NCBI RefSeq assembly: GCF_965363235.1 | Contig: NC_134846.1 | Location: 33,428,218 to 33,492,217 of the forward strand | Origin: Mytilus galloprovincialis | Lineage: Eukaryota > Mollusca > Bivalvia > Mytilida > Mytilidae | Reading direction: 5' to 3' | DNA length: 64,000 nucleotides | Shown: piece by piece, positions 8,212-62,274 of the stretch | Position numbering within the stretch: the first letter of the stretch is position 1 | How the letters are laid out: each line of letters begins with the position of its first letter | Notes under the pieces: model-generated | What the model was told of the DNA's origin: nothing | The model's database searches: none | The model's input: the letters and a program-made list of their open reading frames with translations, nothing else | Program-made: the position numbers and the translations under genes

Positions 8212-8495
8212 TCGAATCAAAAAATGATTCACAGAGCATCATCTTATGACAATGTTAAATGTTTATTTACTACTATGCGAAGGTTTCCTATTTCTCTCCA
8301 TTATTAAACATATCATCTTCCTTGTTTTTGTCTTTACAAATGTATATTTAAAACATACACGTATTCTTTAATTGAATTTTGTAAAACCTTTGATATTTAG
8401 ATAAAGCGTATCTGTATGACTGTGAATATTGATTTGAAACACGGAAATATACCTGAAACATTGTCCCTTGTGTCAGTTAAACTTCCTTTAAAAAC

Positions 8496-15462: not shown

Positions 15463-15600
15463 CGTTCTTCTTGAACTGTAATTTTGAATCAGACAAATGT
15501 AACTGGTTGTCAAGCTCTAACAACAGGGCATACATTTGGACAACGAATAAAACAGGTGACATTACGAAGAGACCGCTGAATGATCACACCACTGGAACTG
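15463..15600 (+). CDS. Gene B exon 7: MAM domain 3, N-terminal part
   Basis: A 138-nt exon after ATACTTCAG with LNCNFESDKCNW and AYIWTTN, exiting at GGTATGG in phase 1. It is one codon longer than gene C exon 7. The following intron is 19.7 kb and holds the ribozyme satellite. Confidence 0.88.
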
Positions 15601-16094
15601 GTATGGATTTATATTATATTTGACTAATAATAAAATACATATAACACATTTTCGTGTGTTGTTTGATAATTGTATTCTGGTGAATTTTGCGTCAAGCGAC
15701 TGTTACAAATGTGTTATTATACTGAAAACTGTATTGTTGACTTAAATTGGCTGTATTTAAATAATAATTATGACGTTAATTTAAACGGATCCAACGGAAT
15801 ATTTCCTAGTTGGTAATTTAAGTGATACATTTTAATATGCTATGTATTTTTACAAGCATTAAAAGGCCTGATTTCAAGAATATTTTCAATTCATAAATGA
15901 TATGTATTCACATCAATTTATTCTCGCTAACGTCAATGTCAATGATGATGATAATTTACAGTGTAGTTATAGATATTACAAATTCTCATATTGCTCTTCA
16001 TGTCAAAAGGAATGGAATAACTTCCACTTATATTTATTATTCGACAGAGTAAAACTATAAATTTGGGAAATTAAACAAAACTGCTATCAATACA

Positions 16095-16620
16095 TCCCTG
16101 TAACACAAAACATTTTCAAAACATTTTAGAAGGTTGTATAAATGTCTTATCAAAACGTTGTCAAACAAATATTTTCGTGATGTTATGTAAATATCTTGTC
16201 TTTGATTTTTAAAACATTTATTTAAAACATCTTTTGAAAATATATTTAAAATGATGTAAGAATATTCATAAAAATGTTTTTATGTTTGAATGTTTTATAA
16301 ATGTTCAGAAGATATGTAGGTTCTACCTCTGAAAAACATTTTAAAAGTATATAAGTAGAACATTTTTAACCATATTACTCCGATGTTTTAAAAATATTTT
16401 CTAAAAATGTTTCATGAAATGTTTAGATAACATGCCTTTGAGATATTTTAACAACATTTCTTCATAATATTTGATGAAAACATTTTGAAAACATTACGTT
16501 CTTAATATCGAGAAAATGAATATATAAAACATTTTGTTGCTAATATTTTGACAACATTTTAAAATATATTATTTAATAGAAAATGTTTTAACAATATTTA
16601 TTTAGGTTATGTAAAATACT
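16095..16620. repeat. Degenerate AAAACATTTT-rich repeat block, left
   Basis: Many variants of AAAACATTTT, AACATTTT and AAATGTTTT on both strands at irregular short spacing. It starts exactly where alignment with gene C intron 7 is lost. A similar block lies at 34230-34490, at the other edge of the insertion. Confidence 0.6.
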
Positions 16621-17500
16621 TTATTTTATTAAATGACAGTGATTGGAGCTGTACCTCGGTCCCATATATAGCATTATACAGTGCACGCATTGCTATTTTC
16701 CGGATTTTCTGTTTCACCACCGACAACAAACGTTTATACATTTAAAATATAACTGTTCCCGATGATCAACGGACATGATCCAAAGGAATTTTAGAACCAG
16801 TTAACGGAAGTTTTATTTACCGCCATGCTGTAAATAAAGACAAAGGAAATGTACAAAATAAAGAATTACCTTATCATGCATTAAAACTGGTAAGATATGA
16901 CACTAGTTCACATTTATAAATCATTGTTATGCTTCTGAAAATATCTTGGTTACTTCGTTTAATATATTTAAAGAAATAATACGAGTGTAAGCAAGTATAA
17001 TGCAAAAAAGGGGATGATGTGAATTTTAGTCTGCCTTCATGTTATGATGTTTATGTCCAGTGAACATTAGAATTATACAAAAAGGCTTAAACTTAAGGGT
17101 TATTTATATGATTTTAAAGTCTATAAAAGCAATCACTTGTTACCACTGAGCATGTCTGAAAAGTTCTGTTAAAAGCATTACAAGCCAGCCCATTATTTGC
17201 TTTAACAGACTGGGCGATATAAACAGTACTTTATTTACTCAATCGCTTGCTACACATCTACTAATCAAGGGAATCTCAAATACGCAATGGTTATCAAAGC
17301 TTTTGCTATTCGATAAAGCGAGTGTTGTTGCCTCTATAATATATTGTTTTACGTTTTTGTAACTTGTACATTTGTGTTGAACCCTACAACCCATCGCCAA
17401 GCCAGATAAATATTTATATGCAGGTCCCAAGACAGGAGTTTGATTCAGTACTTGCAGGTTCATTTCTGACAATTTTTTTTTTTTCGTCAAACTTTATAAG
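16621..17500. other. Intron 7 sequence, nothing recognised
   Basis: AT-rich sequence between repeats. A minus-strand open frame at 17239-17490 has no support as a gene. Confidence 0.5.
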
Positions 17501-17504
17501 AGAG

Positions 17505-17705
17505 GGACGAAAGATACCAAAGGGACAGTCAAACTCATGAATCGAAAATGAACTGACAACTGCCATGGCTAAAAATGAAAAAAGACAAACAGACAAACAA
17601 TAGTACACATGACACAACATAGGAAAATAAAGAATAAACAACATGAACCCCACCAAAAACTAGGGTGATCTCAGGTGCTCCGGAAGGGTAAGCAGATCCT
17701 GCGGC
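17505..17705 (+). repeat. Dispersed repeat family R3 copy
   Basis: It contains GACGAAAGATACCAAAGGG, CAGTCAAACTCATGAATCG and TCCGGAAGGGTAAGCAGATC. An inverted copy lies at 29785-29985, so R3 copies face each other across the satellite. Partial copies are at 13578-13650, 40300-40350, 42055-42095 and 59015-59065. Confidence 0.7.
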
Positions 17706-18129
17706 ACCCGTCCTGTTGCTTTATGAATTATTCCATTCCTTTCATTGTTTGAATTGTTTTATTATACGTCTTTACAGGACGTATTATGGTATACCGTGTC
17801 CGTCTGTCGATCGGCCTGTCCGTTCCTCTGTCTGTTGCCAACATGTCAGACACTAACTCAAAAAAGCTTTAACAAGTAGTAGGAGTAGATGACCTTAGCC
17901 GTATTTGGCACAACTTTTTGGAATTTCGGATCCTCAATGCTCTTCAACTTTGTATTGATTTGGCTTTTTAACTATTTTGATCTGAGCGTCACTGATGAGT
18001 CGTATGTAGACGAAACTTGCGTCTGGCGTATACAATTATAATCCTGGTACTTTTGATAACTATTTACACCACTGGGTCGATGCCACTGCTGGTGGACGTT
18101 TCGTCCCCGAGGGTATCACCAGCCCAGTA

Positions 18130-18149
18130 GTCAGCACTTCGGTGTTGAC
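18130..18149 (+). ncRNA. UUCG-capped hairpin of the satellite monomer (first copy)
   Basis: GTCAGCACTTCGGTGTTGAC folds into an 8-bp stem (one G-U pair) closed by a C(UUCG)G tetraloop, among the most stable loops known. It recurs every 355 bp. One copy near 22753-22760 has a mutated loop. Nested just upstream are ACTGGG/CCCAGT, CTGGTG/CACCAG and GGACG/CGTCC pairings. Confidence 0.75.
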
Positions 18150-18409
18150 ATGAATATCAATTATATGGTCATTTTTATAAATTTTCTGTTTACAAAACCT
18201 TGAATATTTCGAAAAACTAAGGATTTTCTTAGCCCAAGAGTAGATTACTGTAGCCGTATTTTGCACAACTTTTTGGAATTTTGGATCCTCAATGCTCTTC
18301 AACTTTGTATTGATTTGGCTTTTTAACTATTTTGATCTGATCGTCACTGATGAGTCTTATGTAGACGAAACGCGCGTCTGGCGTATAAAATTATAATCCT
18401 GGTACTTTT

Positions 18410-19834
18410 GATAACTATGTACACCACTGGGTCGATGCCACTGCTGGTGGACGTTTCGACCCCGAGGGTATCACCAGCCCAGTAGTCAGCACTTCGGTGT
18501 TGACATGAATATCAATTATATGGTCATTTTTATAAATTTTCTGTTTACAAAACCTTGAATATTTTGAAAAACTAAGGATTTTCCTAGCCCAGGAGTAGAT
18601 TACCTTAGCCGTATTTGGCACAACTTTTTGGAATTTTGGATCCTCAATGCTCTTCAACTTTGTATTGATTTGGCTTTTTAACTATTTTGATCTGAGCGTC
18701 ATTGATGAGTCTTATGTAGACGAAACGCGCGTCTGGCGTATACAATTATAATCCTGGTACTTTTGATAACTATTTACACCACTGGGTTGATGCCACTGCT
18801 GGTGGACGTTTCGTCCCCGAGGGTATCACCAGCCCAGTAGTCAGCACTTCGGTGTTGACATGAATATCAATTATATGGTCATTTTTATAAATTTTCTGTT
18901 TACAAAACCTTGAATATTTCGAAAAACTAAGGATTTTCTTAGCCCAAGAGTAGATTACCGTAGCCGTATTTTGCACAACTTTTTGGAATTTTGGATCCTC
19001 AGTGCTCTTCAACTTTGTATTGATTTGGCTTTTTAACTATTTTGATCTGATCGTCACTGATAAGTCTTATGTAGACGAAACGCGCGTCTGGCGTATAAAA
19101 TTATAATCCTTGTACTTTTGATAACTATGTACACCACTGGGTCGATGCCACTGCTGGTGGACGTTTCGTCCCCGAGGGTATCACCAGCCCAGTAGTCAGC
19201 ACTTCGGTGTTGACATGAATATCAATTATATGGTCATTTTTATAAATTTTCTGTTTACAAAACCTTGAATATTTCGATAAACTAAGGATTTTCTTAGCCC
19301 AGGAGTAGATTACCTTAGCCGTATTTGGCACAACTTTTTGGAATTTTGGATCCTCAATGCTCTTCAACTTTGTATTGATTTGGCTTTTTAATTATTTTGA
19401 TCTGAGCGTCACTGATGAGTCTTATGTAGACGAAACGCGCGTCTGGCGTATAAAATTATAATCCTGGTACTTTTGATAACTATGTACACCACTGGGTCGA
19501 TGCCACTGCTGGTGGACGTTTCGTCCCCGAGGGTATCACCAGCCCAGTAGTCAGCACTTCGGTGTTGACATGAATATCAATTATATGGTCATTTTTATAA
19601 ATTTTCTGTTTACAAAACCTTGAATATTTCGAAAAACTAAGGGTTTTCTTAGCCCAGGAGTAGATTACCTAAGCCGTATTTGGCACAACTTTTTGGAATT
19701 TTGGATCATCAATGCTCTTCAACTTTGTATTGATTTGGCTTTTTAACTATTTTGATCTGAGCGTCACTGATGAGTCTTATGTAGACGAAACGCGCGTCTG
19801 GCGTATAAAATTATAATCCTGGTACTTTTGATAA
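18410..19834 (+). repeat. Satellite higher-order block H1, first copy
   Basis: Four monomers whose private variants recur in the same order 1775 bp (five units) downstream at 20185-21609: the GACCCCGAGG variant, then the C3-to-U hammerhead, then the G8-to-A hammerhead with a nearby TCAGTGCTC, then a GATAAACTAAGG variant. Confidence 0.8.
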
Positions 19835-20184
19835 CTATGTACACCACTGGGTCGATGCCACTGCTGGTGGACGTTTCGTCCCCGAGGGTATCACCAGCCC
19901 AGTAGTCAGCACTTCGGTGTTGACATGAATATCAATTATATGGTCATTTTTATAAATTTTCTGTTTACAAAACCTTGAATATTTCGAAAAACTAAGGATT
20001 TTCTTAGCCCAAGAGTAGATTACTGTAGCCGTATTTTGCACAACTTTTTGGAATTTTGGATCCTCAATGCTCTTCAACTTTGTATTGATTTGGCTTTTTA
20101 ACTATTTTGATCTGAGCGTCATTGATGAGTCTTATGTAGACGAAACGCGCGTCTGGCGTATAAAATTATAATCCTGGTACTTTT

Positions 20185-21609
20185 GATAACTATGTACACC
20201 ACTGGGTCGATGCCACTGCTGGTGGACGTTTCGACCCCGAGGGTATCACCAGCCCAGTAGTCAGCACTTCGGTGTTGACATGAATATCAATTATATGGTC
20301 ATTTTTATAAATTTTCTGTTTACAAAACCTTGAATATTTTGAAAAACTAAGGATTTTCCTAGCCCAGGAGTAGATTACCTTAGCCGTATTTGGCACAACT
20401 TTTTGGAATTTTGGATCCTCAATGCTCTTCAACTTTGTATTGATTTGGCTTTTTAACTATTTTGATCTGAGCGTCATTGATGAGTCTTATGTAGACGAAA
20501 CGCGCGTCTGGCGTATACAATTATAATCCTGGTACTTTTGATAACTATTTACACCACTGGGTTGATGCCACTGCTGGTGGACGTTTCGTCCCCGAGGGTA
20601 TCACCAGCCCAGTAGTCAGCACTTCGGTGTTGACATGAATATCAATTATATGGTCATTTTTATAAATTTTCTGTTTACAAAACCTTGAATATTTCGAAAA
20701 ACTAAGGATTTTCTTAGCCCAAGAGTAGATTACCGTAGCCGTATTTTGCACAACTTTTTGGAATTTTGGATCCTCAGTGCTCTTCAACTTTGTATTGATT
20801 TGGCTTTTTAACTATTTTGATCTGATCGTCACTGATAAGTCTTATGTAGACGAAACGCGCGTCTGGCGTATAAAATTATAATCCTTGTACTTTTGATAAC
20901 TATGTACACCACTGGGTCGATGCCACTGCTGGTGGACGTTTCGTCCCCGAGGGTATCACCAGCCCAGTAGTCAGCACTTCGGTGTTGACATGAATATCAA
21001 TTATATGGTCATTTTTATAAATTTTCTGTTTACAAAACCTTGAATATTTCGATAAACTAAGGATTTTCTTAGCCCAGGAGTAGATTACCTTAGCCGTATT
21101 TGGCACAACTTTTTGGAATTTTGGATCCTCAATGCTCTTCAACTTTGTATTGATTTGGCTTTTTAACTATTTTGATCTGAGCGTCACTGATGAGTCTTAT
21201 GTAGACGAAACGCGCGTCTGGCGTATAAAATTATAATCCTGGTACTTTTGATAACTATGTACACCACTGGGTCGATGCCACTGCTGGTGGACGTTTCGTC
21301 CCCGAGGGTATCACCAGCCCAGTAGTCAGCACTTCGGTGTTGACATGAATATCAATTATATGGTCATTTTTATAAATTTTCTGTTTACAAAACCTTGAAT
21401 ATTTCGAAAAACTAAGGGTTTTCTTAGCCCAGGAGTAGATTACCTAAGCCGTATTTGGCACAACTTTTTGGAATTTTGGATCATCAATGCTCTTCAACTT
21501 TGTATTGATTTGGCTTTTTAACTATTTTGATCTGAGCGTCACTGATGAGTCTTATGTAGACGAAACGCGCGTCTGGCGTATAAAATTATAATCCTGGTAA
21601 TTTTGATAA
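20185..21609 (+). repeat. Satellite higher-order block H1, second copy
   Basis: Repeats the variant order of 18410-19834, showing duplication of a multi-unit block and not only single monomers. Confidence 0.8.
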
Positions 21610-23739
21610 CTATTTACACCACTGGGTTGATGCCACTGCTGGTGGACGTTTCGTCCCCGAGGGTATCACCAGCCCAGTAGTCAGCACTTCGGTGTTGACA
21701 TGAATATCAATTATATGGTCATTTTTATAAATTTTCTGTATACAAAACCTTGAATATTTCGAAAAACTAAGGATTTTCTGAGCCCAGGAGTAGATTACCT
21801 TAGCCGTATTTGGCACAACTTTTTGGAATTTTGGATCCTCAATGCTCTTCAATTTTGTATTGATTTGACTTTTTACTTATTTTGATCTGAGCGTCACTGA
21901 TGAGTCTTATGTAGACGAAACGCGCGTCTGGCGTTTAAAATTATAATCCTGGTACTTTTGATAATTGTTTACACCACTGGGTCGATGCAACTGCTGGTGG
22001 ACGTTTCGTCCCCGAGGGTATCACCAGCCCAGTAGTCAGCACTTCGGTGTTGACATGAATATCAATTATATGGTCATTTTTATAAATTTTCTGTATACAA
22101 AACCTTGAATATTTCGAAAAACTAAGGATTTTCTTAGCCCAAGAGTAGATTACCTTAGCCGTATTTGGCACAACTTTTTGGAATTTTGGATCCTCAATGC
22201 TCTTCAATTTTGTATTGATTTGGCTTTTTACTTATTTTTATCTGAGCGTCACTGATGAGTCTTATGTAGACGAAACGCGCGTCTGGCGTATAAAATTATA
22301 ATCCTGGTACTTTTGATAACTATGTACACCACTGGGTCGATGCCACTGCTGGTGGACGTTTCGTCCCCGAGGGTATCACCAGCCCAGTAGTCAGCACTTC
22401 GGTGTTGACATGAATATCAATTATATGGTCATTTTTATAAATTTTCTGTTTACAAAACCTTGAATATTTCGAAAAACTAAGGATTTTCTTAGCCCAAGAG
22501 TAGATTACCGTAGCCGTATTTTGCACAACTTTTTGGAATTTTGGATCCTCAGTGCTCTTCAACTTTGTATTGATTTGGCTTTTTAACTATTTTGATCTGA
22601 GCGTCACTGATAAGTCTTATGTAGACGAAACGCGCGTCTGGCGTATAAAATTATAATCCTGGTACTTTTGATAACTATGTACACCACTGGGTCGATGCCA
22701 CTGCTGGTGGACGTTTCGTCCCCGAGGGTATCACCAGCCCAGTAGTCAGCACTTCTCTGTTGACATGAATATCAATTATATGGTCATTTTTATAAATTTT
22801 CTGTTTACAAAACCTTGAATATTTCGAAAAACTAAGGATTTTCTTAGCCCAGGAGTAGATTACCTTAGCCGTATTTGGCACAACTTTTTGGAATTTTGGA
22901 TCCTCAATGCTCTTCAACTTTGTATTGATTTGGCTTTTTAACTATTTTAATCTGAGCGTCACTGATGAGTCTTATGTAGACGAAACGCGCGTCTGGCGTA
23001 TAAAATTATAATCCTGGTACTTTTGATAACTATGTACACCACTGGGTCGATGCCACTGCTGGTGGACGTTTCGTCCCCGAGGGTATCACCAGCCCAGTAG
23101 TCAGCACTTCGGTGTTGACATGAATATCAATTATATGGTCATTTTTATAAATTTTCTGTTTACAAAACCTTGAATATTTCGAAAAACTAAGGGTTTTCTT
23201 AGCCCAGGAGTAGATTCCCTAAGCCGTATTTGGCACAACTTTTTGGAATTTTGGATCATCAATGCTCTTCAACTTTGTATTGATTTGGCTTTTTAACTAT
23301 TTTGATCTGAGCGTCACTGATGAGTCTTATGTAGACGAAACGCGCGTCTGGCGTATAAAATTATAATCCTGGTAATTTTGATAACTATTTACACCACTGG
23401 GTTGATGCCACTGCTGGTGGACGTTTCGTCCCCGAGGGTATCACCAGCCCAGTAGTCAGCACTTCGGTGTTGACATGAATATCAATTATATGGTCATTTT
23501 TATAAATTTTCTGTATACAAAACCTTGAATATTTCGAAAAACTAAGGATTTTTTGAGCCCAGGAGTAGATTACCTTAGCCGTATTTGGCACAACTTTTTG
23601 GAATTTTGGATCCTCAATGCTCTTCAATTTTGTATTGATTTGACTTTTTACTTATTTTGATCTGAGCGTCACTGATGAGTCTTATGTAGACGAAACGCGC
23701 GTCTGGCGTTTAAAATTATAATCCTGGTACTTTTGATAA
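21610..23739 (+). repeat. Satellite higher-order block H2, first copy
   Basis: Six monomers matched unit for unit 2485 bp (seven units) downstream at 24095-26224. Shared private variants include CTTATTTTTATCTGAG, the G8-to-A hammerhead, TTTTAATCTGAG and GGATTTTTTGAGCCC. Confidence 0.8.
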
Positions 23740-24094
23740 TTATTTACACCACTGGGTTGATGCCACTGCTGGTGGACGTTTCGTCCCCGAGGGTATCACC
23801 AGCCCAGTAGTCAGCACTTCGGTGTTGACATGAATATCAATTATATGGTCATTTTTATAAATTTTCTGTTTACAAAACCTTGAATATTTCGAAAAACTAA
23901 GGGTTTTCTTAGCCCAGGAGTAGATTACCTAAGCCGTATTTGGCACAACTTTTTGGAATTTTGGATCATCAATGCTCTTCAACTTTGTATTGATTTGGCT
24001 TTTTAACTATTTTGATCTGAGCGTCACTGGTGAGTCTTATGTAGACGAAACGCGCGTCTGGCGTATAAAATTATAATCCTGGTAATTTTGATAA

Positions 24095-26224
24095 CTATTT
24101 ACACCACTGGGTTGATGCCACTGCTGGTGGACGTTTCGTCCCCGAGGGTATCACCAGCCCAGTAGTCAGCACTTCGGTGTTGACATGAATATCAATTATA
24201 TGGTCATTTTTATAAATTTTCTGTATACAAAACCTTGAATATTTCGAAAAACTAAGGATTTTCTGAGCCCAGGAGTAGATTACCTTAGCCGTATTTGGCA
24301 CAACTTTTTGGAATTTTGGATCCTCAATGCTCTTCAATTTTGTATTGATTTGACTTTTTACTTATTTTGATCTGAGCGTCACTGATGAGTCTTATGTTGA
24401 CGAAACGCGCGTCTGGCGTTTAAAATTATAATCCTGGTACTTTTGATAATTGTTTACACCACTGGGTCGATGCAACTGCTGGTGGACGTTTCGTCCCCGA
24501 GGGTATCACCAGCCCAGTAGTCAGCACTTCGGTGTTGACATGAATATCAATTATATGGTCATTTTTATAAATTTTCTGTATACAAAACCTTGAATATTTC
24601 GAAAAACTAAGGATTTTCTTAGCCCAAGAGTAGATTACCTTAGCCGTATTTGGCACAACTTTTTGGAATTTTGGATCCTCAATGCTCTTCAATTTTGTAT
24701 TGATTTGGCTTTTTACTTATTTTTATCTGAGCGTCACTGATGAGTCTTATGTAGACGAAACGCGCGTCTGGCGTATAAAATTATAATCCTGGTACTTTTG
24801 ATAACTATGTACACCACTGGGTCGATGCCACTGCTGGTGGACGTTTCGTCCCCGAGGGTATCACCAGCCCAGTAGTCAGCACTTCGGTGTTGACATGAAT
24901 ATCAATTATATGGTCATTTTTATAAATTTTCTGTTTACAAAACCTTGAATATTTCGAAAAACTAAGGATTTTCTTAGCCCAAGAGTAGATTACCGTAGCC
25001 GTATTTTGCACAACTTTTTGGAATTTTGGATCCTCAGTGCTCTTCAACTTTGTATTGATTTGGCTTTTTAACTATTTTGATCTGAGCGTCACTGATAAGT
25101 CTTATGTAGACGAAACGCGCGTCTGGCGTATAAAATTATAATCCTGGTACTTTTGATAACTATGTACACCACTGGGTCGATGCCACTGCTGGTGGACGTT
25201 TCGTCCCCGAGGGTATCACCAGCCCAGTAGTCAGCACTTCGGTGTTGACATGAATATCAATTATATGGTCATTTTTATAAATTTTCTGTTTACAAAACCT
25301 TGAATATTTCGAAAAACTAAGGATTTTCTTAGCCCAGGAGTAGATTACCTTAGCCGTATTTGGCACAACTTTTTGGAATTTTGGATCCTCAATGCTCTTC
25401 AACTTTGTATTGATTTGGCTTTTTAACTATTTTAATCTGAGCGTCACTGATGAGTCTTATGTAGACGAAACGCGCGTCTGGCGTATAAAATTATAATCCT
25501 GGTACTTTTGATAACTATGTACACCACTGGGTCGATGCCACTGCTGGTGGACGTTTCGTCCCCGAGGGTATCACCAGCCCAGTAGTCAGCACTTCGGTGT
25601 TGACATGAATATCAATTATATGGTCATTTTTATAAATTTTCTGTTTACAAAACCTTGAATATTTCGAAAAACTAAGGGTTTTCTTAGCCCAGGAGTAGAT
25701 TACCTAAGCCGTATTTGGCACAACTTTTTGGAATTTTGGATCATCAATGCTCTTCAACTTTGTATTGATTTGGCTTTTTAACTATTTTGATCTGAGCGTC
25801 ACTGATGAGTCTTATGTAGACGAAACGCGCGTCTGGCGTATAAAATTATAATCCTGGTAATTTTGATAACTATTTACACCACTGGGTTGATGCCACTGCT
25901 GGTGGACGTTTCGTCCCCGAGGGTATCACCAGCCCAGTAGTCAGCACTTCGGTGTTGACATGAATATCAATTATATGGTCATTTTTATAAATTTTCTGTA
26001 TACAAAACCTTGAATATTTCGAAAAACTAAGGATTTTTTGAGCCCAGGAGTAGATTACCTTAGCCGTATTTGGCACAACTTTTTGGAATTTTGGATCCTC
26101 AATGCTCTTCAATTTTGTATTGATTTGACTTTTTACTTATTTTGATCTGAGCGTCACTGATGAGTCTTATGTAGACGAAACGCGCGTCTGGCGTTTAAAA
26201 TTATAATCCTGGTACTTTTGATAA
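24095..26224 (+). repeat. Satellite higher-order block H2, second copy
   Basis: Second copy of the six-unit block. It has a few private changes such as ATGTTGACG in a stem II. Confidence 0.8.
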
Positions 26225-26934
26225 TTATTTACACCACTGGGTCGATGCAACTGCTGGTGGACGTTTCGTCCCCGAGGGTATCACCAGCCCAGTAGTCAGC
26301 ACTTCGGTGTTGACATGAATATCAATTATATGGTCATTTTTATAAATTTTCTGTATACAAAACCTTGAATATTTCGAAAAACTAAGGATTTTCTTAGCCC
26401 AAGAGTAGATTACCTTAGCCGTATTTGGCACAACTTTTTGGAATTTTGGATCCTCAATGCTCTTCAATTTTGTATTGATTTGGCTTTTTACTTATTTTGA
26501 TCTGAGCGTCACTGATGAGTGTTATGTAGACGAAACGCGCGTCTGGCGTATAAAATTATAATCCTGGTACTTTTGATAACTATGTACACCACTGGGTCGA
26601 TGCCACTGCTGGTGGACGTTTCGTCCCCGAGGGTATCACCAGCCCAGTAGTCAGCACTTCGGTGTTGACATGAATATCAATTATATGGTCATTTTTATAA
26701 ATCTTCTGTTTACAAAACCTCGAATATTTCGAAAAACTAAGGATTTTCTTAGCCCAGGAGTAGATTACCTTAGCCGTATTTGGCACAACCTTTTGGAATT
26801 TTGGATCCTCAATGCTCTTCAACTTTGTATTGATTTGGCTTTTTAACTATTTTGATCTTAGCGTCACCGATGAGTCTTATGTAGACGAAACGAGCGTCTG
26901 GCGTATAAAATTATAATCCTGGTACTTTTGATAA

Positions 26935-28354
26935 CTATTTACACCACTGGGTCGATGCCACTGCTGGTGGAAGTTTCGTCCCCGAGGGTATCACCAGCCC
27001 AGTAGTCAGCACTTCGGTGTTGACATGAATATCAACTATATGGTCATTTTTATAAATTTTCTGTTTACAAAACCTTGAATATTTCGAAAAACTAAGGATT
27101 TTCTTAGCCAAGGAGGAGATTACCTTAGCCGTATTTTGCACAACTTTTTGGAATTTTGGATCCTCAATGCTCTTCAACTTTGTATTGATTTGGCTTTTTA
27201 ACTATTTTGATCTGAGCGTCACTGATGAGTCTTATGTAGACGAAACGCGCGTCTGGCGTATAAAATTATAATCCTGGTACTTTTGATAGCTATGTACACC
27301 ACTGGGTCGATGCCACTGCTGGTGGACGTTTCGTCCCCAAGGGTATCACCAGCCCAGTAGTCAGCACTTCGGTGTTGACATGAATATCAATTATATGGTC
27401 ATTTTTATAAATTTTCTGTTTACAAAACCTTGAATATTTCGAAAAACTAAGGATTTTCTTAGCCCAGGAGTAGATTACCTAAGCCGTATTTGGCACAACT
27501 TTTTGGAATTTTGGATCATCAATGCTCTTCAACTTTGTATTGATTTGGCTTTTTAACTATTTTGATCTGAGCGTCACTGATGAGTCTTATGTAGACAAAA
27601 CGCGCGTCTGGCGTATAAAATTATAATCCTGGTACTTTTGATAACTATTTACACCACTGGGTCGATGCCACTGCTGGTGGAAGTTTCGTCCCCGAGGGTA
27701 TCACCAGCCCAGTAGTCAGCACTTCGGTGTTGACATGAATATCAACTATATGGTCATTTTTATAAATTTTCTGTTTACAAAACCTTGAATATTTCGAAAA
27801 ACTAAGGATTTTCTTAGCCAAGGAGGAGATTACCTTAGCCGTATTTTGCACAACTTTTTGGAATTTTGGATCCTCAATGCTCTTCAACTTTGTATTGATT
27901 TGGCTTTTTAACTATTTTGATCTGAGCGTCACTGATGAGTCTTATGTAGACGAAACGCGCGTCTGGCGTATAAAATTATAATCCTGGTACTTTTGATAGC
28001 TATGTACACCACTGGGTCGATGCCACTGCTGGTGGACGTTTCGTCCCCAAGGGTATCACCAGCCCAGTAGTCAGCACTTCGGTGTTGACATGAATATCAA
28101 TTATATGGTCATTTTTATAAATTTTCTGTTTACAAAACCTTGAATATTTCGAAAAACTAAGGATTTTCTTAGCCCAGGAGTAGATTACCTAAGCCGTATT
28201 TGGCACAACTTTTTGGAATTTTGGATCATCAATGCTCTTCAACTTTGTATTGATTTGGCTTTTTAACTATTTTGATCTGAGCGTCACTGATGAGTCTTAT
28301 GTAGACAAAACGCGCGTCTGGCGTATAAAATTATAATCCTGGTAATTTTGATAA
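26935..28354 (+). repeat. Satellite higher-order block H3, two tandem 710-bp dimers
   Basis: Dimers 26935-27644 and 27645-28354 share GGAAGTTTCGTCC, GATAGCTATG, CCCCAAGGG and the hammerhead-inactivating GACAAAAC. They appear nearly identical. Confidence 0.8.
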
Positions 28355-29309
28355 CTATTTACACCACCGGGTTGATGCCACTGCTGGTGGACGTTTCGTC
28401 CCCGAGGGTATCACCAGCCCAGTAGTCAGCACTTCGGTGTTGACATGAATATCAATTATATGGTCATTTTTATAAATTTTCTGTATACAAAACCTTGAAT
28501 ATTTCGAAAAACTAAGGATTTTGTTAGCCCAGGAGTAGCTTACTGTACCTTAGCCGTATTTGGCACAACTTTTTGGAATTTTGGATCCTCAATGCTCTTC
28601 AATTTTGTATTGATTTGGCTTTTTACTTATTTTGATCTGAGCGTCACTGATGAGTTTTATGTAGACGAAACGCGCGTCTGGCGTTTAAAATTATAATCCT
28701 GGTACTTTTGATAATTATTTACACCACTGGGTCGATGCCACTGCTGGTGGACGTTTCGTCCCCGAGGGTATCACCAGCCCAGTAGTCAGCACTTCGGTGT
28801 TGACATGAATATCAATTATATGGTCATTTTTATAAATTTTCTGTTTACAAAACCTTGAATATTTCGAAAAACTAAGGATTTTCTTAGCCCAAGAGTAGAT
28901 TACTGTAGCCGTATTTTGCACAACTTTTTGGAATTTTGGATCCTCAATGCTCTTCAACTTTGTATTGATTTGGCTTTTTAACTATTTTGATCTGAGCGTC
29001 ACTGATGAGTCTTATGTAGACGAAACGCGCGTCTGGCGTATAAAATTATAATCCTGGTACTTTTGATAACTATTAACCAATTTGAATAACACTTTGGTGG
29101 ATTGTTTATATATGTTACAGTAAATAGGTGAAATTAAGAATTACATGTAATTACTAAAATTCAGGAATTACATGTAATTACTAAAATTCAGGAATTACAT
29201 GTAATTCCTGATGCACTTAGTAAATACAAGTAATTCCTGAATCTGCCCAGATATTACCAGTAATCACTAATTTTTAAATGAATTTTTACAGCTATTTACT
29301 TACTATTAA

Positions 29310-30450
29310 AACAATGTTGTAATGTGGTCAGCTGATAAAAAATCAGGGTAAATCTGATAAGAAGGTCAGTGAATATTATCAAAAAGTGATCATCCTAAAC
29401 TATACCGTTTTGCTATATAAAAGAGACATTAACTATATAATACAAACAATTAAATATGATTTTTTTGTTGTCGAATCAAATTATAATTCGCTTTTTGCAG
29501 ATAAATTTAATTCATTTTTTTTTAAATAAGCTAACAAACATGGCTGATGAGTTATTTACTTGCAAATGACTAGTTCAACCTCAATGTAACTGTTTAGCTG
29601 GAGATGGGTTACACATGTAGTCAGCTGTTAAAAAGAATAGAGTGTCAACATTGAAAGTAAAACAAAAGGGGTGAACCTTTTGGTTGACTGGTTCGATCCA
29701 CGAAAAGATCATTATTATACATGTACCTGCACTATTAACGATCTTGTAATAACATGCGTAACATGACAAGTGCCACAAGTGGAACAGGATCTGCTTACCC
29801 TTCCGGAGCACCTGAGATCACCCCCAGTTTTTGGTGTGGTTCGTGTTGCTTATAGTCCTTAGGTTTCCATGTAGTGTGTTGTGTACTATTATTTGTCTGT
29901 TTGTCTTTCCCCCTTGTGAGCCACGGCGTTGTCAGTTTATTGAGTTTGGCTGTCCCTTAAGTATCTTTCACCCCCCTTTTTGACATACCTTTTAACCTTC
30001 AATTTGAAATCAAACATACCTAGAAAAATCATATTGCATATGGATGCGGTCTGTTTATATTCATATAATTGTTAATATCTGTTTACTAGTATATGATCGT
30101 TGGCAGTCTTCTGAGGTCATTTCGATAATTAATTATATGATGTTTAGACGAACATACACACGAAATTTTGATACATATTATCGCTTTAATGCATTGTTGA
30201 TTGTTCATTTTAGACGTTTTGTAATTTGGATATTAGTGTAGTATATTATAAATCAAATATGAGGATTTGAGTCAAGTCAGTGAACATGAATTTGACAGCT
30301 AGTGCAATTTTAACTGTCTTTAACATGTTTTTTGAAAATGCACAACAAGAAATGAGAAAAAGAAAAATAAATTGAAGGGAAACCAGTTTTGAGTACAGAC
30401 GGACAAGGGTAAACCTTAATGCCTCAATCATTTCTTATGTCAAGTTGGTC
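29310..30450. mobile_element. Probable insertion nested in the left arm of element 1
   Basis: The right arm has only about 200 bases between the corresponding landmarks. The extra sequence includes the inverted R3 copy. Exact borders not determined. Confidence 0.4.
29785..29985 (-). repeat. Dispersed repeat family R3, inverted copy
   Basis: It contains GGATCTGCTTACCCTTCCGG, GTACTATTATTTGTCTGTTT and TTGGCTGTCCCTTAAGTATC, the complement of 17505-17705. Confidence 0.7.
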
Positions 30451-30760
30451 TGATTAATATGCAAAGTATGCCTCATAGAGATTTCAATTTTATTATGAAT
30501 AATCAAGATCTTATAACCAAAGGAGAAGGTTCACAAAGGGTTAAAATTGGCCCTAAATGTTTGATGGTTTTTAAATCTAGCCAAAATATTACAAATTTCA
30601 CATAGAAAAACTTGTGATAATACTATTCTGACAAACATTTTTTTTGTAGCTTTCTTGTAAAAGATTTAAAGCTATGACCCCTTTTTAAATAAACATTATT
30701 TGTATTTTAGGTCATTTTTGGTAAAAATATTCCATAATCTTAATTGTTTCAGGCATAATT

Positions 30761-30880
30761 AACCTTGGCCGCCATCCACAATCAAAAAATATTTTATTTT
30801 GACGAATTCTAAATCATGTATATCAAAATTGGAATCTTTTGGTTAAAAAACATTTTGGATCTTAGGTGGCGGCCAAGGTT
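30761..30880. repeat. Central hairpin of element 1
   Basis: AACCTTGGCCGCCA (30761-30774) and TGGCGGCCAAGGTT (30867-30880) are a perfect 14-bp inverted repeat around an AT-rich loop of about 92 bases, near the centre of symmetry of the foldback element. Confidence 0.8.
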
Positions 30881-31530
30881 TTCCTTAAGCTTTTATGTCT
30901 GAAAATTGCACAAAATCATCATATTTTGACAAAATGTCCCAAATGGGCCTACTTTGAAGAATATTGTGTATTTTTATGAAAAGAACTGATCTATTTAGCC
31001 TTAAGGCTTTTGAAATAGACCTTTTTACGAAACAAATGTGACCTTTTAATGGTGTTTTAAGATCAAGTTGATATTTTAGGCCATTTTGTGCTTCATGTGT
31101 AAGTGAACCTTGATTATTCATAATAAAGTTAAAATCTCAATTGGGTATCATTGTCTTGCATATTGCAAATGAGTTTTAGCGAGTTTCAAAAATTATAAAA
31201 CATTCATTTTCAAGTTTCAATTCACAAACATAAATATAGAACATAGTTACAATCTTTGACTCCATTACCTCCAAAGTAATCCCTACAATCCTAACCCTGT
31301 TACTTTCTTATTTGGTATCTTGAATTATATTTCAAATTTAACATGTTTAATACAAAATATCAAGTTAGTAAATAGGTGTAAAAATGACTAAAAAAATCAG
31401 TAAATACCTGTAATCACTGAAACCAACAGTAAATTCATGTAATTACTAAATTGGTTAGTAATTACAGGTATTTACTGAATAGTTCAGTAATTACGTGTAA
31501 TTCCTAATTTCACCTATTTACTGTAACATA

Positions 31531-31902
31531 TACATGGAGCAGCTGTTCACTTTTGTATGTTGTGGCCTTTGTAGCTGACTATTACAATATGACTTTTTCT
31601 TACTTATATTTTATTTATTTGTTTATTTTAACTTTTGTAGGATCAATTAGACGTACCAAAATTTATGATAGATTTTCTAAAATGGGGATTTTAAAGAAGA
31701 ATATAAGCTTAGAAATGACTACAACCATCCTGGAAGAGCAAATGTTATATGAAGGTATTTATTATTTAAAATCCTCAATCTATATTACATGTATTTGCGC
31801 AAAAAATACAATAACCATTACGAAACTTTTTTTTCTTTGTGAGACCAAGACAATGTTACGGGTTCTTCTACTCTTTATAGTTGAGAAAATTATAGTGTAC
31901 AA
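31531..31902. other. Sequence between the two foldback elements
   Basis: AT-rich. The open frame spanning 31553-31957 crosses into the next element and is judged spurious. Confidence 0.5.
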
Positions 31903-33361
31903 TCACTACAAACCGTTAAAGTCTGAAATGGCCTATATCTGTACTCGACTGTACTGATTTTTACTCGACCAGTCTGAATTGATCTGACTTTTACTTGACA
32001 TTACTCGACCCCAGTCTGAACCATACTTGACTGTACTGAATCGTACTTGACCCTTATCTTTGCCGTTGAAAATAGTCTGAACTATTACTCGACCAGTCTG
32101 AAACAGTCTTAACCCATTCTTGACATGTACTCTACCTATTTTTCCAGTCTAAACCATACTTAACCAAAGGTCTGAACAATACTTGACCAGTCTGAACCAT
32201 ACTAGACCAAAAACCCTCTATTTTTTAACTGTTTAAATAAATTTCTTTTTAACTGACATATATAACAACAGCCAACAAAATTTATAAAAGATTTTAACCT
32301 TATCATGCTTATAAAAGAAATACATCTCTGATTATAATTTTAGGATAAAAAAAAAATATCATATATAACTTATATCAAAAAGGGATAAAATTAAATAAAT
32401 AAATAAAATTATTTTTCTGATTAGTGGTGAAATATAAAGTATAATAACCTCTGCTTGGGGCAAACTCATAAATAAGATCACACCTGGTCAGAGGTATTAA
32501 ATTCTAAATAACATTGATTCAAAATTGCAACATCCTGTTTAAATTAAATAACAAGGCCTTTCGAATATACATGTATGTACTAGATAAGTAATACACGAAT
32601 TTAAGAAAATAGGGCTTTCTTTTTACCTGTAAAACACACATGTACTGAGTTAATTAGAACATATTAAAGTGCTTTATGTATGCCATGTTAATTTGACAAA
32701 AAAATACTTAAATTAATTTACAAAAATTTGTACTGTTACTTTGGAATACATTTCCTTTTTTTAAAAAGGTTATCAAGGATTGCTAGGGAAATTCTATTAT
32801 AATGATTATATTAAATTCTTGGTTTAATAAAACAAAACAATTAAGCTCTCATTTTTTTTTAATTTATTTAGTTGTTTTATATACTATTTTATATATATCT
32901 TAATAAAAAAATCATTCACTGCATTATAAACTGAAGTCAACTGACAACATAAATCTATACTAGGCTTAAGTTAATGGTGAAAATAGTCCAGTTACCATAA
33001 ACATGATAAAATACTTCCGAAATATTCATAAACTTTGAATAATATTGAAAATATGATAAAATTCAGTTAATAGATACAAAGAATAGGTCTAGTTTGGTTA
33101 AGACTTGGTCGAGTATGGTTCAGACTAGGTCGAGTACGGTTCAGACTAGGTCGAGTACGGTTCAGACTAGGACCAGTACAGTTCAGACTCGTATAAAACG
33201 GTTAAGTTCTGGTCAAGTACACATTCAGACTGTTAAGTATGGTTCAGACTACAGTCGAGTATTATCAAGTAAATCTCAGACGAATTCAGACTGGTCGAGT
33301 AAAAATCAGTACAGTTGAGTACAGATATAGGCCATTTCAGACTTTTAATGGTTTGTAGTGA
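31903..33361. mobile_element. Inverted-repeat (foldback-like) element 2 with tandem subrepeats in its arms
   Basis: The left end TCACTACAAACC and following AAAGTCTGAAATGGCC and GATTTTTACTCGACCAGTC match the reverse complement of the right end. Both arms (about 31930-32215 and 33085-33345) consist of degenerate short units built on CAGACTaggTCGAGTAcGGTT or its complement. The middle is AT-rich with no transposase. A recurring VQTRSST-type frame at 33094-33318 is a by-product of the subrepeats. Confidence 0.8.
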
Positions 33362-34229
33362 ATATACATGTCTTATTTTAAAAACTGGTGAAATCTACCG
33401 TTACACTTGTTTATTAATAAAAAAAAAACTCTAGATGTATAAAATAGCTACAATTGTTGCTTCGCAAATCATTAACACTGATAAGTTAACACTTTTCAAT
33501 ATTTTTTTGTAAAACCACTGGATTTAATGAAGAGAAATAGTTTATTGTGTAATTTTTATTAAATTAACTGAAGCTCCAATTGTTTAATCACTAATCTGAA
33601 GGAATAATTTGTTTACACTTTATTTTACAGAAGTCAGCAGATGTCAAAGGAAATAAAAAGAATGGAACAAAGGAAACTTTGAAAAAGAACAGTGATATGA
33701 AGATATTGAATAAATGTTTTGCATTTATAATTGTAATTCTATTTTGTATAGTGTTGACTAATTATATATAAGGCAGCAAAGAAAACAGTTAAAAAACTAT
33801 GCAGAAAAAATGTCTGACGGTACATGTGATCAAACATGAGATCAAGAAATACTTCTCCAAAAAATGCACAAAGATATCTAAATCAGAAAAAAAGAATACC
33901 TTTCTGTAAGTAAAACCATGACAAACTATATAATATAACGTGTTCAATGAATACAAAAAAAAAAGGTTTATGTCAATGAGACATCAATCTGACAAAAGAA
34001 AACAAAATATATGTTGATTCAACTGTAATCAACAAACAATTGTAAAAGAAGATGTGGGGTAAAGATCAGTATGACAGCAGTTGTTTTTCAGATGCAGATC
34101 TATGATTATGAGAAAAGTGGTCACAGGCTCTAAACTAGACAAAGTTTGCGTGAAATAGTTGGAATTAGATAAACCATAATTATAGCTCCATAAGGGGACC
34201 CAGGACCCCCCCCCCCTAATTCAAACACG
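33362..34229. other. Intron 7 sequence, nothing recognised
   Basis: AT-rich spacer with a short C-tract at about 34207-34216. No supported feature. Confidence 0.5.
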
Positions 34230-34490
34230 ATCAAATGTTTTTTTAATATTTTATAAAACGTTTGAATAATGATGTTAGAAAAAATTTTCTAATGATATTC
34301 ATATAATATTTAAATGATGTTTTGAGAATAAGAACATTATTAAAACATTTTGTAAAATATTTTTTGAACATTTTCACAACATTTTATCCTGCAAAACAAA
34401 TTGGTTTTATTTTTTAAAAATGTTTCAAAAATATTTTAATATAAACAAACATTTACAAAACATTTTACACACATTGTCAACAAAATACAT
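34230..34490. repeat. Degenerate AAAACATTTT-rich repeat block, right
   Basis: Dense AACATTTT/AAATGTTT variants, as in 16095-16620. Alignment with gene C intron 7 resumes at about 34490, so this block marks the right edge of the B-specific insertion. Confidence 0.6.
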
Positions 34491-35321
34491 GAAGTAGATA
34501 TGTTCGAGTGACATGATGCAGTGAAAATATTTAATGGATATGAAAAAGCATTTGCAACCGTGAGTGACATCAATGACGCGACGTCATACAGTTAAAAGTG
34601 TCATAGAGCTGCTGTATTTGTGTCTCAAATATCGACAATACCCATTATTTGAAGTTCATAAAGGTTGATTAATGCGAAGTTGGTCTAACCTGGATATGAT
34701 TCATGGCAAGATCGATTTACTTAGTATTATCAATACCGTATATATATGTAAGGACCCAACATTACAAAATGTGGAATATTTTTCATAAGAAAAAACAGCT
34801 TTATTCTTGAATTGAAAGTACAAAAATATGACAGACAACAACCATTGACTACGAACGTGTACATTTAAAATGTGGTTGTTTTTACATATAGTAGCAATAG
34901 TTGTATCCGCAAGAAAAAAAAACTTACATAAAAACATTCAACATCCTGTAAGAGAATAACTCAATATTACTGAAAGGTTGAAGAGAATAAGACTTAATGA
35001 ATACATTCATAAAGTGGCGTTAAAAAGAAATCAATAAATCAATAAACTATTCATACTTTTGTCAAGTGTCGAATAATTTTTTACATATTCAATGTCTGTG
35101 TATGTATCCTGTATTATTGTTGATATGTAATGAAAATCTGTTCCATATATCCGTGTGCCTATACATCTTATTAAAACCTACCTTCCTTTATAAATGTCGC
35201 TTTGTTCTTCATTACATAAGCAGGTTAGTGTAAAAAGTCAGATATGGTTATTTATGAATTATTATTTTAATCCTATTTTCATTCCATTTATTTCCTCTTT
35301 TTTTATTTTTCGTTCCAAAAG

Positions 35322-35666
35322 TTAATGGACATTACATTTACCTTCAAATTGAAGGTATAAAACGATCTGGTATGCAGTCTAAATTTACAAGTAACATTAT
35401 CCATCCTGATGGTGATATTTGTTTAACTTTCTGGTATCATATGTATAAAATAGAGCCAGATACCTTAAGAGTTTACACAGAATCAGAAAACACTACTCAA
35501 CTGCGTTGGTCACAGAACGGAAGCAACTTAGACCAGTGGAACTTTGCTAGTTTTACAATTTCTATATCAGAACCATACAGGATTATATTTAAAGGGGTTC
35601 GAGGATCTGGTTATTGGAGTGTTTTAGCAATAGATGATATTTCACTACTTGAGCGTTCGTGTTCAG
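35322..35666 (+). CDS. Gene B exon 8: MAM domain 3, C-terminal part
   Basis: A 345-nt exon after TTCCAAAAG with NGHYIYLQ, GDICLTFWYHMYK, IIFKGVRGSG, LAIDDISLLE and a closing cysteine, then GGTAAGT. It completes the MAM domain begun at 15463 in frame across the 19.7-kb intron. Confidence 0.88.
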
Positions 35667-36671
35667 GTAAGTAAATCAATCACAAAGATATTTTAGGATC
35701 AGCATCTTTTTGATTATATCAATCCTTAAAATCAAAGAAACATATTTGTTTAAAGATTAATCATTGTATACGTTCGTATTGTGTTGAGTATACTTCTATT
35801 TCTTATAAAGGGGAGGGGCATTGTGATATTCTCATCCATGTGTATGTCTTTCCGTGCTATAAATATCTTGTCACAGGGAAGTCTGAAGGGCTTGCTGATC
35901 TTTCACGAATTAGAAAACGATAAGTACATAATGTAGGCCCATACTGCGCTATTGTTAAATATTATTCACTGCCCTAGGTTTGTTTGTAGGACCGGCTTAG
36001 CATAAATACAATGAAAATGACACTTTACTTACCATTATAACGAAACTGAAATCGCTTTGGACATTGTATCGTAAATAAAACAGTGTTTGTAAAATAGTTC
36101 ATCCACGGAATTAATAAGTTTCTGAAAAAAAATACAATGAAAATGAAGTAATTATTTAAAAGAAGTGGGTTTTCTTCATGTTAAACAATATGCAATGATT
36201 TTTTTACACTGTAGCATATCTGTGCTATGTGAATAAATTAAACTTGTAATTACACAATTCTCTCTTCCTTGATTTTTAAAGGACTGTACAATGTAGCTGT
36301 TCAATTACTGTTTAGCTACCCGAAAAACAAATACAATATTGTGTACATGTAAGCTGAATGATGATATTATTCAAACTATGAAAAAAAGCGAGAGACCTAA
36401 AACGAACACATAACGAAGGTCAAGGTCATGTTCCTAATTTAGATTTTTCCTATCGTTACTTCTTTTAAGAAATAGTTCATCTACATAATAGTTTTAATGA
36501 GTGAAACTAGTTATGGTTTTTTCAAGTAAAAAGGGAAGGTTGACATTGAATGGGAGGTCTTAAAAATGATAAACATTTACTGATTGTTATACGTAGAATG
36601 TCTAAATTATTTCAATGTATAGAAGTGATGTTGCTACCTTTTATTTTAATTTTAAGATTTGTTTTTTGTAG
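35667..36671. other. Gene B intron 8
   Basis: About 1 kb, AT-rich. It aligns in parts (GTAGCATATCTGTG, AGCTGAATGATGAT) with gene C sequence at 62620-63480. Confidence 0.65.
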
Positions 36672-39187: not shown

Positions 39188-39226
39188 CAAAGAAGTACTA
39201 CTGGCCTGAAGAAACGCGTACCGATG
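39188..39226 (+). CDS. Gene B exon 11: linker micro-exon
   Basis: A 39-nt phase 1-1 exon between GATGTCAG and GGTATGTC encoding KKYYWPEETRTD. The acceptor has a poor pyrimidine tract, so this is the least certain exon of the model. Confidence 0.5.
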
Positions 39227-60470: not shown

Positions 60471-62274
60471 GTAAGGGTTTACATTATAATTTTCAAACTA
60501 CATATCATAAGTTTTCATGTTTTTGTTGTTTGCTAATTTAAATCTCTTAAAGTTTTAAGTGAAGTGAAGACTTCCAATAATCTTTAGCGTTGGCTTTAAT
60601 CAACTGTATTTGAAACAAAGTTATGACGTAAATTGGTATTGATCCAATGAAACTCGTCCTGATTGGTATTTTGAATAATACATAAACCTATAAATATTTT
60701 AACAACCCTTATAAAGTCTGATTTCAAGAATATTCATAAATGATATGTATTCACAATGTATTCTCTCTAACGTCAACGTCAATGATCTGATGATGATGAT
60801 AGTTTACTGTATAGTTTTTGATATATCAAATTCTAAAATTACTCTTCATACAGAGAGGAAAGAGGTCAATCCCCTTATATTTATTGTCGACAGAGCATAA
60901 ATGTAAAAGTTGGGAAATTCGATAGGACTGCTATCAATACATTGAGATCACCATATGGCTTTTTCATTATCAACTCGAGACATCTTTTTGATGAATTATA
61001 TTTGGGGGTAAATACGGTCTTTATCATTGAAAAACCTATATAAATTTACTTTCTCAAATACCTAAAGTAGACGTTTTCATTTAACATGATACAGTGAACA
61101 TGTTTAGGGATATAATAAAGCATTTGCAACCGTAATTTACTGCGATGACTGGATATCATACTGTTAAGGGTCATATTGTTCACTTGGTCGTTAATTCATG
61201 CGAGTCATTAAATTTTATTTATCACTGCGTTAGATTTATTCAGTCCATTATCATGTTGTTCATCTTGTCAGAAGATTTAATTAGTCGTTTAAAATTGTCA
61301 TGGTATCGTTATATTTAATCGACCTCGTTGAGATTGATTCAATTTTAATCAGTTGAATAACCTAATTATAAGGTGGCTGTCAATGATTTGTTTCAACCAC
61401 CTGTGGTTAGAAGAGAAAAATATTTTCGCTTTGTTTTACCTCCTTCAACAACCATTGGCTACGGACGTTTATTCGTATACAAAAGTTAATCCTGTATCTA
61501 TGCTGAGTTTATTTACATTTAAAATGAGATTGTTTTTACATACATCAATAGTTGTATCCGCCCCTTATATCAACTAGGGACACAGGTTCAAGCACTACTA
61601 GAACTTTATAATACATCACTTTAAAATTGCACGACTCATCAGATTGGCATTACGCACGAAAAAATTACTTACATAAAAACAATCAATATCCCTGTAAAAG
61701 AACAACTCACAATTACTGAAAACTAGTAGCCAGTAAGAATTATTAAATAAATCATGTTAGCATAGACTTGATACACCAAGCTTATAAAGTTGCAGATGCC
61801 CTCGATTCCAAAATTAATTTTCTAGGATTGGTATTTCAACTATCAAGGGTCAGTGGATCTACCTTGTGCACTCCGGCTTCTTCACCAGTAAAAACTGACC
61901 ACCAAGAAATAGCAGTCTTGAATGTACCGTTAAACAGCAATCAACAAATTTATATAATATTCATATGTTTGTCCAGTGTCGAAGACATCATTTTGCCTAT
62001 CTAATGCCTGCTTATATTTCCTGTCATATTGTTAATATGTCATGAAAATCTGTTCCATATTTCCACGTGATTATATATAGATATACGTTTTAGGAAGATG
62101 TGGTATTATACATCTTATCGAAACTTACAATTACGCTTATTATTGTCGCTTTGTTCTTCATTACATATATAGGTACGGAGTGAGTAAACAAAGTCAGATG
62201 ATGTCAGTGAATTATTATTTTAATCTCAATTTTCATTCTATTTATTTCTTCTTTTTTATTTTTTGTTCCAAAAG
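60471..62274. other. Gene C intron 7, without the satellite
   Basis: A 1.8-kb intron. GACTGCTATCAATACAT at about 60930 and AAGCATTTGCAACCGT at about 61118 align with gene B at about 16080 and 34544, which brackets the empty site of the gene B insertion. Confidence 0.75.

Follow-up and report, generated by a model that had tools for sequence, protein, structure and literature searches.

A retrozyme-like tandem array of hammerhead ribozymes in a receptor gene intron of Mytilus galloprovincialis

The window, a 64,000-bp stretch of the Mytilus galloprovincialis genome, includes gene B and its paralog gene C (Table 1). The original prediction took positions 15601–35321 for an intron that splits the third MAM domain of gene B, and this placement holds with exact GT..AG phase-1 boundaries; once joined, the flanking exons encode a complete MAM domain by Pfam (PF00629, E 1.5e-34). 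A tandem array covers only part of this intron (11.2 of 19.7 kb).

Table 1. Features of the gene B intron and of its counterpart in gene C, in window coordinates.
Feature	Position	Strand	Description	Basis
Exon part upstream of gene B intron, first half of MAM domain 3	15471..15600	+	exon 5' edge not fixed	
Intron of gene B	15601..35321	+	phase-1 GT..AG, 19,721 bp, between two exons of third MAM domain	sequence, spliced translation, Pfam MAM
Older dispersed repeat hit by array, left part	17721..17873	+	stretch searched	
Target-site duplication TTAAC, left copy	17869..17873	+	followed by 7 extra bases (17874-17880)	
Retrozyme array	17881..29073	+	31.5 units of 355 bp, terminating at unit phase 182/183	
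32 type I hammerhead motifs, 44 nt each	17986..29039	+	predicted cleavage between unit phases 143 and 144; 21 intact	
Target-site duplication TTAAC, right copy	29073..29077	+	first T common to array end	
Older dispersed repeat, right continuation	29078..29112	+	joined flanks aligned to locus L047	
Exon downstream of gene B intron, second half of MAM domain 3	35322..35668	+	open; 3' edge approximate, at gtaag	
Homologous GT..AG intron of gene C (paralog)	60471..62274	+	1804 bp, unit match absent	

The tandem repeat has a period of 355 bp, 31.5 copies and 96% matches. The Rfam model RF00163 (Hammerhead_1) gave 32 matches on the plus strand (22.6–33.0 bits, E 4.3e-05 to 0.12); because none of them reaches the curated gathering threshold of 34, a search at that cut-off returned none. 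Checked letter by letter, all 32 layouts carry a type I hammerhead, each still under the gathering score, and the core, defined as CTGANGA plus GAAA plus an NUH triplet, is intact in 21. The 11 broken cores are altered at G8 (four), C3 (three), G12 (two), A6 (one) and U4 (one), so that one third of the ribozymes in the array are dead by core sequence. The 32 complete type I hammerheads predicted on the sense strand of gene B are thus borne out by the Rfam matches and the letter check, the latter also confirming the 21 intact cores, and the predicted 355-bp spacing stands with one exception, unit 30, of 360 bp. In the context of the unit, RNAfold, which does not model tertiary contacts, gave probabilities of 0.005 for stem I and 0.30 for stem II. 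A candidate ribozyme-blocking helix, GTTTCGTC against GACGAAAC, was dropped at a pairing probability of 0.0 in the same context. The unit contains a B-box-like GGGTCGATGCC with one mismatch, for which 36 of 2000 single-base shuffles were equally good, and a search of the unit for an internal RNA polymerase III promoter found no well-placed A box beside it. The longest reading frame in the array is 96 aa (stop to stop).

By description, the gene B array matches an already known kind of element, the mussel-type retrozyme, and its unit may be like the published mussel repeat sequences (MN642551-MN642576). Excerpts of the report on the M. galloprovincialis non-LTR retrozyme (Cervera and de la Pena 2020, PMC7229834) describe 350–390-bp repeats with a kobs of about 0.1 per min, for which self-cleaved linear and circular RNA were reported. 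Type I hammerheads, tandem units of 350–390 bp, thousands of copies and low GC are common to both, LTRs are likewise not seen at the array ends, and the original link to the retrozymes is supported (PMC7229834). GC is 0.375–0.395 in 1-kb windows across 18001–29000, in keeping with the low GC and 150–450-bp units of metazoan non-LTR retrozymes, and dispersed copies with target-site duplications are also found. The 355-bp units are present on many chromosomes, with flanking sequence that varies from locus to locus; a 35-letter pattern had 10,370 matches in the genome and its reversed control had 0. Unlike the present family, the mussel element is described in the excerpted text of PMC7229834 without an intronic array, a fixed 3' end or block duplications, and its step of genome entry is put forward there as a hypothesis.

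The array lies within an older dispersed repeat. Among the listed matches to the left part of this repeat (the window's own excluded), 34 of 39 stop at query position 153, which corresponds to 17873. The joined array flanks align (172 of 196 columns) to an uninterrupted repeat, that is, an empty site, at locus L047, the single target-repeat copy for which the far side was read. Judged from these sequences, the insertion is retrotranspositional, as the 5-bp TTAAC duplication and the uninterrupted target repeat elsewhere directly indicate here. Tandem arrays are difficult to assemble and the locus is known from the assembly alone, so the true place of the array could in principle be elsewhere; however, the sequences on either side are the two halves of a single dispersed repeat, which L047 carries without interruption, and the array stops at the usual 3' end of the family, which makes such an artefact extremely improbable. 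The number of units in the array may be wrong even if its placement is right.

Family elements share a preferred 3' end, TTTTGATAACTAT, and have variable 5' ends. In 27 of the 30 selected arrays, and in 9 of the 12 elements counted in a chromosomal sample, the 3' end falls at phase 180–187, about 40 nt beyond the cleavage site; three of each set end outside this range. The 30 arrays were drawn from 40 collected elements, the 10 omitted ones (low identity, short or cut) ending at phase 180–187 in three cases and elsewhere in seven; the chromosomal sample comprised 14 elements, two of which were uncounted as cut by the stretch, one of these ending at 183. Elements below one period long in the chromosomal sample also carry the same 3' end. 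Among 5' ends, four of the 30 arrays start exactly at phase 149 (Monte Carlo 0.00025), where ribozyme stem I has its outer edge, and 7 of 42 elements start within phase 144–155 (p 0.0005), with 1 of 12 (p 0.34) in the chromosomal sample alone. Flank matching exceeded that of permutations (0/500).

Unit pairs differing by two bases or fewer account for 8 of 26 pairs at an offset of five units and 6 of 24 at an offset of seven, against none of the 30 neighbouring pairs (neighbour mean 11.6), and near-identical blocks recur at offsets of 5, 7 and 12, as in higher-order satellite DNA. This pattern indicates that after insertion the array grew at the DNA level in 5- and 7-unit blocks. A plain satellite of DNA-level origin, with no retrotransposition, would also show such block duplications, but it would leave aside the preferred 3' end combined with 5' ends that vary, the target-site duplication, the empty site and the 3' end shared by sub-period elements, and we consider it very improbable. 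In the other arrays, pooled unit pairs differ by 0.38% within an array versus 2.1% between arrays; averaged over 19 per-array values, the within-array difference is 0.94%. Elsewhere, an array of 16.5 units has an internal divergence of 0.04%. These figures point to the copying of a single template, against which some others are internally as divergent as the gene B array, up to 3.5%.

The ribozyme core of the gene B array decays as fast as the rest, and thus gives no sign of retention for cutting gene B precursor RNA. Divergence is 2.7% (11/403) in the core versus 2.5% outside the ribozyme, and the corresponding values in 30 other arrays are 0.27% (3/1131) versus 1.15% for the rest. Variable columns number 5 of 13 in the core versus 57 of 342 others (p 0.057), the direction being towards more change in the core; unit 32 was omitted from both the variable-column and the divergence counts, and one short broken unit entered the variable-column and broken-core counts and was absent from the divergence count. 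Within this array the core is unconstrained, without the conservation expected of a domesticated intronic hammerhead. If the sense intronic position instead favoured ribozyme loss, dead cores would accumulate faster than under neutrality. Consistent with such selection against cutting, broken cores are more frequent here (11/32) than in other arrays (4/114, p 9e-6) or among the sites of a chromosomal listing (16/100, counted by eye; p 0.04), and the fraction of variable columns is 2.3 times as high in the core as elsewhere. However, the set of 114 was drawn from arrays chosen for high similarity, an identical motif filter on both sides yields 8/24 versus 16/100 (p 0.08), and neutral decay accounts for the broken cores equally well, so that we regard this selection as unlikely. 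Because the broken units are duplicated copies, there were only about five independent breaking events.

A kinetic model that takes k=0.1/min and assumes 2 kb/min predicts about 9 cuts and a probability of 5e-6 that no cut precedes the acceptor. At the published cleavage rate, gene B pre-mRNA would thus nearly always be cut before transcription reaches the acceptor, and many-fold cutting, as originally proposed, is plausible. Selection might maintain this cleavage, lowering full-length receptor mRNA or favouring short forms, a possibility that draws on the 21 of 32 intact sense hammerheads, the modelled cuts, the Cpeb3 intronic ribozyme as precedent (PMC10919898) and a dN/dS of 0.73 in the exon downstream of the array (MAM3b) versus 0.40 overall. 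Yet the core columns are at least as variable as the others, the retrozyme unit is absent from the 1804-bp intron of gene C, the only paralog compared for presence at the same site, and relative-rate tests on the downstream exon found no significant excess with any of four outgroups (p 0.09–0.77); such a function is very unlikely. The proposed regulation of the receptor, or favouring of forms ending after MAM2, is likewise unsupported, given in addition that the downstream exon is still open and that a family with more than 10,000 matches must land in many introns. Relaxed constraint on that exon was considered from its dN/dS and dropped on the relative-rate tests.

The intronic Cpeb3 ribozyme is HDV-like. 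It resembles the gene B array in being self-cutting, intronic and in a race with polymerase, and excerpts of PMC10919898 report that its inhibition leads to higher CPEB3 protein; it is a single ribozyme with a reported effect on its own gene, whereas the gene B array has 32 hammerheads. The SmPoMuc mucin genes of Schistosoma mansoni similarly carry a satellite-like repeat hammerhead in introns of a multigene family, with G12 kept only in group 2 genes, but there every gene described in the excerpted text has a ribozyme between exons 9 and 10 (PMC2576457), whereas here 32 lie in gene B and none in the gene C intron. Conserved hammerheads of amniotes are also type I and within introns; these are few and highly conserved as excerpted from PMC6155905, in contrast to the tandem and decaying ones of gene B.

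The array is very probably a mussel-type non-LTR retrozyme insertion that arose by reverse transcription of circular RNA and was later enlarged by unequal exchange, its cores decaying and its intact copies remaining able to cut the nascent intron. Family RNA would self-cleave and then circularise, and a borrowed reverse transcriptase would start at a fixed internal site, 40 nt 3' of the cleavage point, and copy round the circle. The cDNA would have been joined into the older dispersed repeat within the gene B intron, creating the 5-bp duplication; unequal exchange would have expanded the array to 32 units via 5- and 7-unit blocks, and the cores would have decayed at the same rate as the remaining array. 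Upon transcription, the 21 intact hammerheads could cut the nascent gene B intron; exon joining would nevertheless go ahead provided that splicing can cope with a cut intron or that cleavage proceeds slowly in vivo. An internally primed linear multimer could also yield such arrays. Most family RNA presumably derives from loci other than gene B. More speculatively, and with considerable doubt, every gene B transcript might be cut repeatedly in one intron yet spliced because polymerase-held exons stay together, while genome-wide RNA circles might be reverse-transcribed from one fixed internal start for up to 16 rounds, stopping preferentially at the folded or cut ribozyme.

At the gene B locus, the cost of carrying a self-cutting mobile element in an intron could be gauged by comparison with a neighbouring paralog that lacks the array. 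The array ends provide purely sequence-based evidence for the way in which animal retrozymes enter genomes, pointing to a preferred 3' start, copying of a circle, a short duplication and an empty site.

Gene B, a MAM-domain gene, carries the array in an intron whose flanking exons, once joined in phase 1, encode a complete MAM domain, so the array does lie between two MAM-domain exons as the original prediction had it. A scan of the window with Rfam at the gathering threshold returned no match; with E-values, Hammerhead_1 (RF00163) matched every one of the 32 units, all on the + strand, with scores of 22.6–33.0 bits, each short of the gathering score of 34, and comparison with the catalytic core found it intact in 21. 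Both the 32 sense-strand hammerheads and the exact number of intact cores had been read from the sequence beforehand. The commonest motif is GCGTCA-CTGATGA-GTC..GAC-GAAA-CGCGC-GTC-TGGCGT, in which the 3' strand of stem I occupies phase 144–149 of the 355-bp unit, stem II is GTC/GAC and helix III is very short; cleavage is predicted at phase 143, after GTC. The B-box-like GGGTCGATGCC at phase 194–204 may serve the repeat as an internal promoter.

Array, host introns and decayed family pieces in the window
Feature	Position	Strand	Remarks
Gene B intron	15601-35321	+	flanking exons join in frame, phase 1
Tandem array	17881-29073	+	period 355, 31.5 copies, Tandem Repeats Finder
Gene C homologous intron	60471-62274	+	GT..AG, 1804 bp, same two exons on either side
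Decayed family piece	8135-8222	-	66-84% identity across three pieces
Decayed family piece	38924-39208	-	66-84% identity across three pieces
Decayed family piece	44766-44809	+	66-84% identity across three pieces; covers 44-nt ribozyme stretch only

Gene B is part of a gene family arranged in tandem along its chromosome, and one of its exons has 75 matches in the genome, most on contigs C9 and C7. The homologous intron of its paralog in the window, gene C, gave no match to the 355-bp unit. The five exons compared contain no stops in either gene, with an overall dN/dS of 0.40. MAM-domain genes in tandem surround the window (C9, 32.87–33.49 Mb), and a second MAM cluster, including a 3519-aa open frame, lies near 25.8 Mb on C7. 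Ten open frames of the window gave nothing above cutoffs against Pfam; a 322-aa frame (42261–43229) containing a 189-bp tandem repeat (42670–43158) likewise had no Pfam family above cutoff, and frames overlapping on both strands at a GC peak of 0.42 (49001–50000) had no Pfam match.

The available text on the mussel retrozyme describes ~5000 type I hammerheads in 350–390-bp repeats (Cervera and de la Pena 2020, PMC7229834), a description that the 355-bp repeat fits. Searching one unit against the genome from which the window comes (1.38 Gb in 331 contigs) yielded at least 189 matches, with 39 of 1302 candidates scored. A 35-letter pattern spanning the ribozyme, its core boxes left partly free, occurred 5004 times forward and 5366 times in reverse (control pattern, 0), a density of 7.5 per Mb or 0.15 expected per intron-length stretch (19.7 kb). 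Because the first 100 listed pattern sites, by reading of the listing, are single or in groups of at most three at unit spacing, and 30 measured arrays have a median of 2.8 units with 16.5 the next largest, the 32 units in gene B are exceptional among the arrays examined. Intronic hammerheads are reported, in the portions available, for amniotes (PMC6155905) and Schistosoma mucin genes (PMC2576457). In the search listings and text passages covered, neither a tandem retrozyme array inside an intron nor a fixed 3' end for animal retrozymes was found, which argues only weakly that such reports are lacking.

A dispersed repeat borders the array on its left, and 34 of 39 listed matches to it elsewhere end at window position 17873. 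Another genomic copy, L047, the sole one with its far side examined, runs on unbroken into the sequence right of the array. The window reads GCTTTAAC on the left, seven extra bases, the array and then TTAACCAATTTG, and L047 reads GCTTTAACCAATTTG; since L047 is continuous across both flanks, the alignment indicates that TTAAC is duplicated at the insertion site and that L047 represents the empty site. Duplications of 15 bp are noted for Nematostella retrozymes in the accessible part of the 2016 retrozyme paper. Directly 3' of the array, a 50-nt inverted repeat (29109–29158 / 31483–31532; 94% complementary, 2324 nt apart) suggests a probable 2.4-kb foldback or terminal-inverted-repeat element. 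Inverted repeat copies also flank the array (17562–17701 / 29785–29927; 39 nt at 100%, 75 nt at 77%) and could pair in RNA, looping it out.

The array of gene B and 29 others, each no shorter than 400 bp, at least 95% identical and with both flanks present, were compared. In 27 of these 30 the 3' end falls at phase 180–187 (in 14 at 183), and the 5' ends spread over phase 1 to 349. To offset the choice of best matches, a further sample was taken site by site from the beginning of chromosome C1; 9 of its 12 uncut elements end at phase 180–187, five of the nine being shorter than one unit. The preferred 3' end lies 40 nt beyond the cleavage site. Upstream of this point a cleaved linear monomer would offer just its initial 40 nt, and longer copying from there would require a circle or an uncleaved multimer as template. 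Circular RNA is favoured as the final template in the part of the 2016 retrozyme paper available, and is abundant for the mussel retrozyme in the available text of PMC7229834, which names a dimeric construct Mg353. In four of the 30 arrays the 5' end coincides with the outer edge of stem I, phase 149; in the C1 sample one element starts at 144 and one at 140, and the excess near the stem I edge is not significant in those 12 elements on their own. Target-like words common to the flanks measure 5.27 letters versus 4.34 by permutation (0 of 500 as high).

Over pooled pairs from other arrays, unit divergence is 0.38% inside an array versus 2.1% across arrays (per-array mean within arrays, 0.94%); internal divergence is 0.04% in the 16.5-unit array and as high as 3.5% in some older ones. 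Within the gene B array, no neighbouring pair (0/30) has two or fewer base differences (mean 11.6), and such pairs number 8 of 26 at offset 5 and 6 of 24 at offset 7, the signature of DNA-level duplication in blocks. Thirty other arrays differ from the family consensus by 0.27% in the core versus 1.15% outside the ribozyme, and the gene B array by 2.7% versus 2.5%; on the simplest reading, it has left the replicating pool and is decaying neutrally. Broken cores in 11 of 32 units versus 4 of 114 in other arrays hint at more than this, namely selection favouring dead ribozymes in a sense-strand intronic position, but those 114 units come from arrays picked for similarity, a same-filter comparison with the chromosomal listing gives 8/24 versus 16/100 (p 0.08), and the broken units trace to about five events.

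A cloned mussel retrozyme repeat cleaves with a kobs of ~0.1 per min according to the text available (PMC7229834). Should cleavage in the nucleus be as fast as published, and assuming a polymerase speed of 2 kb per min, ~9 of the 21 intact ribozymes would cut before transcription reaches the acceptor at 35321, with a 5e-6 chance of zero cuts by then; in the model this chance is 0.09 at 0.02 per min and 0.55 at 0.005 per min. Unit-length RNA would come from 12 neighbouring pairs of intact units. A cut intron can still be spliced, via tethering to the polymerase. Inhibition of the intronic ribozyme of Cpeb3 raises its protein, according to the accessible part of PMC10919898. The exon downstream of the array is still open, which argues that enough full-length gene B mRNA is made.
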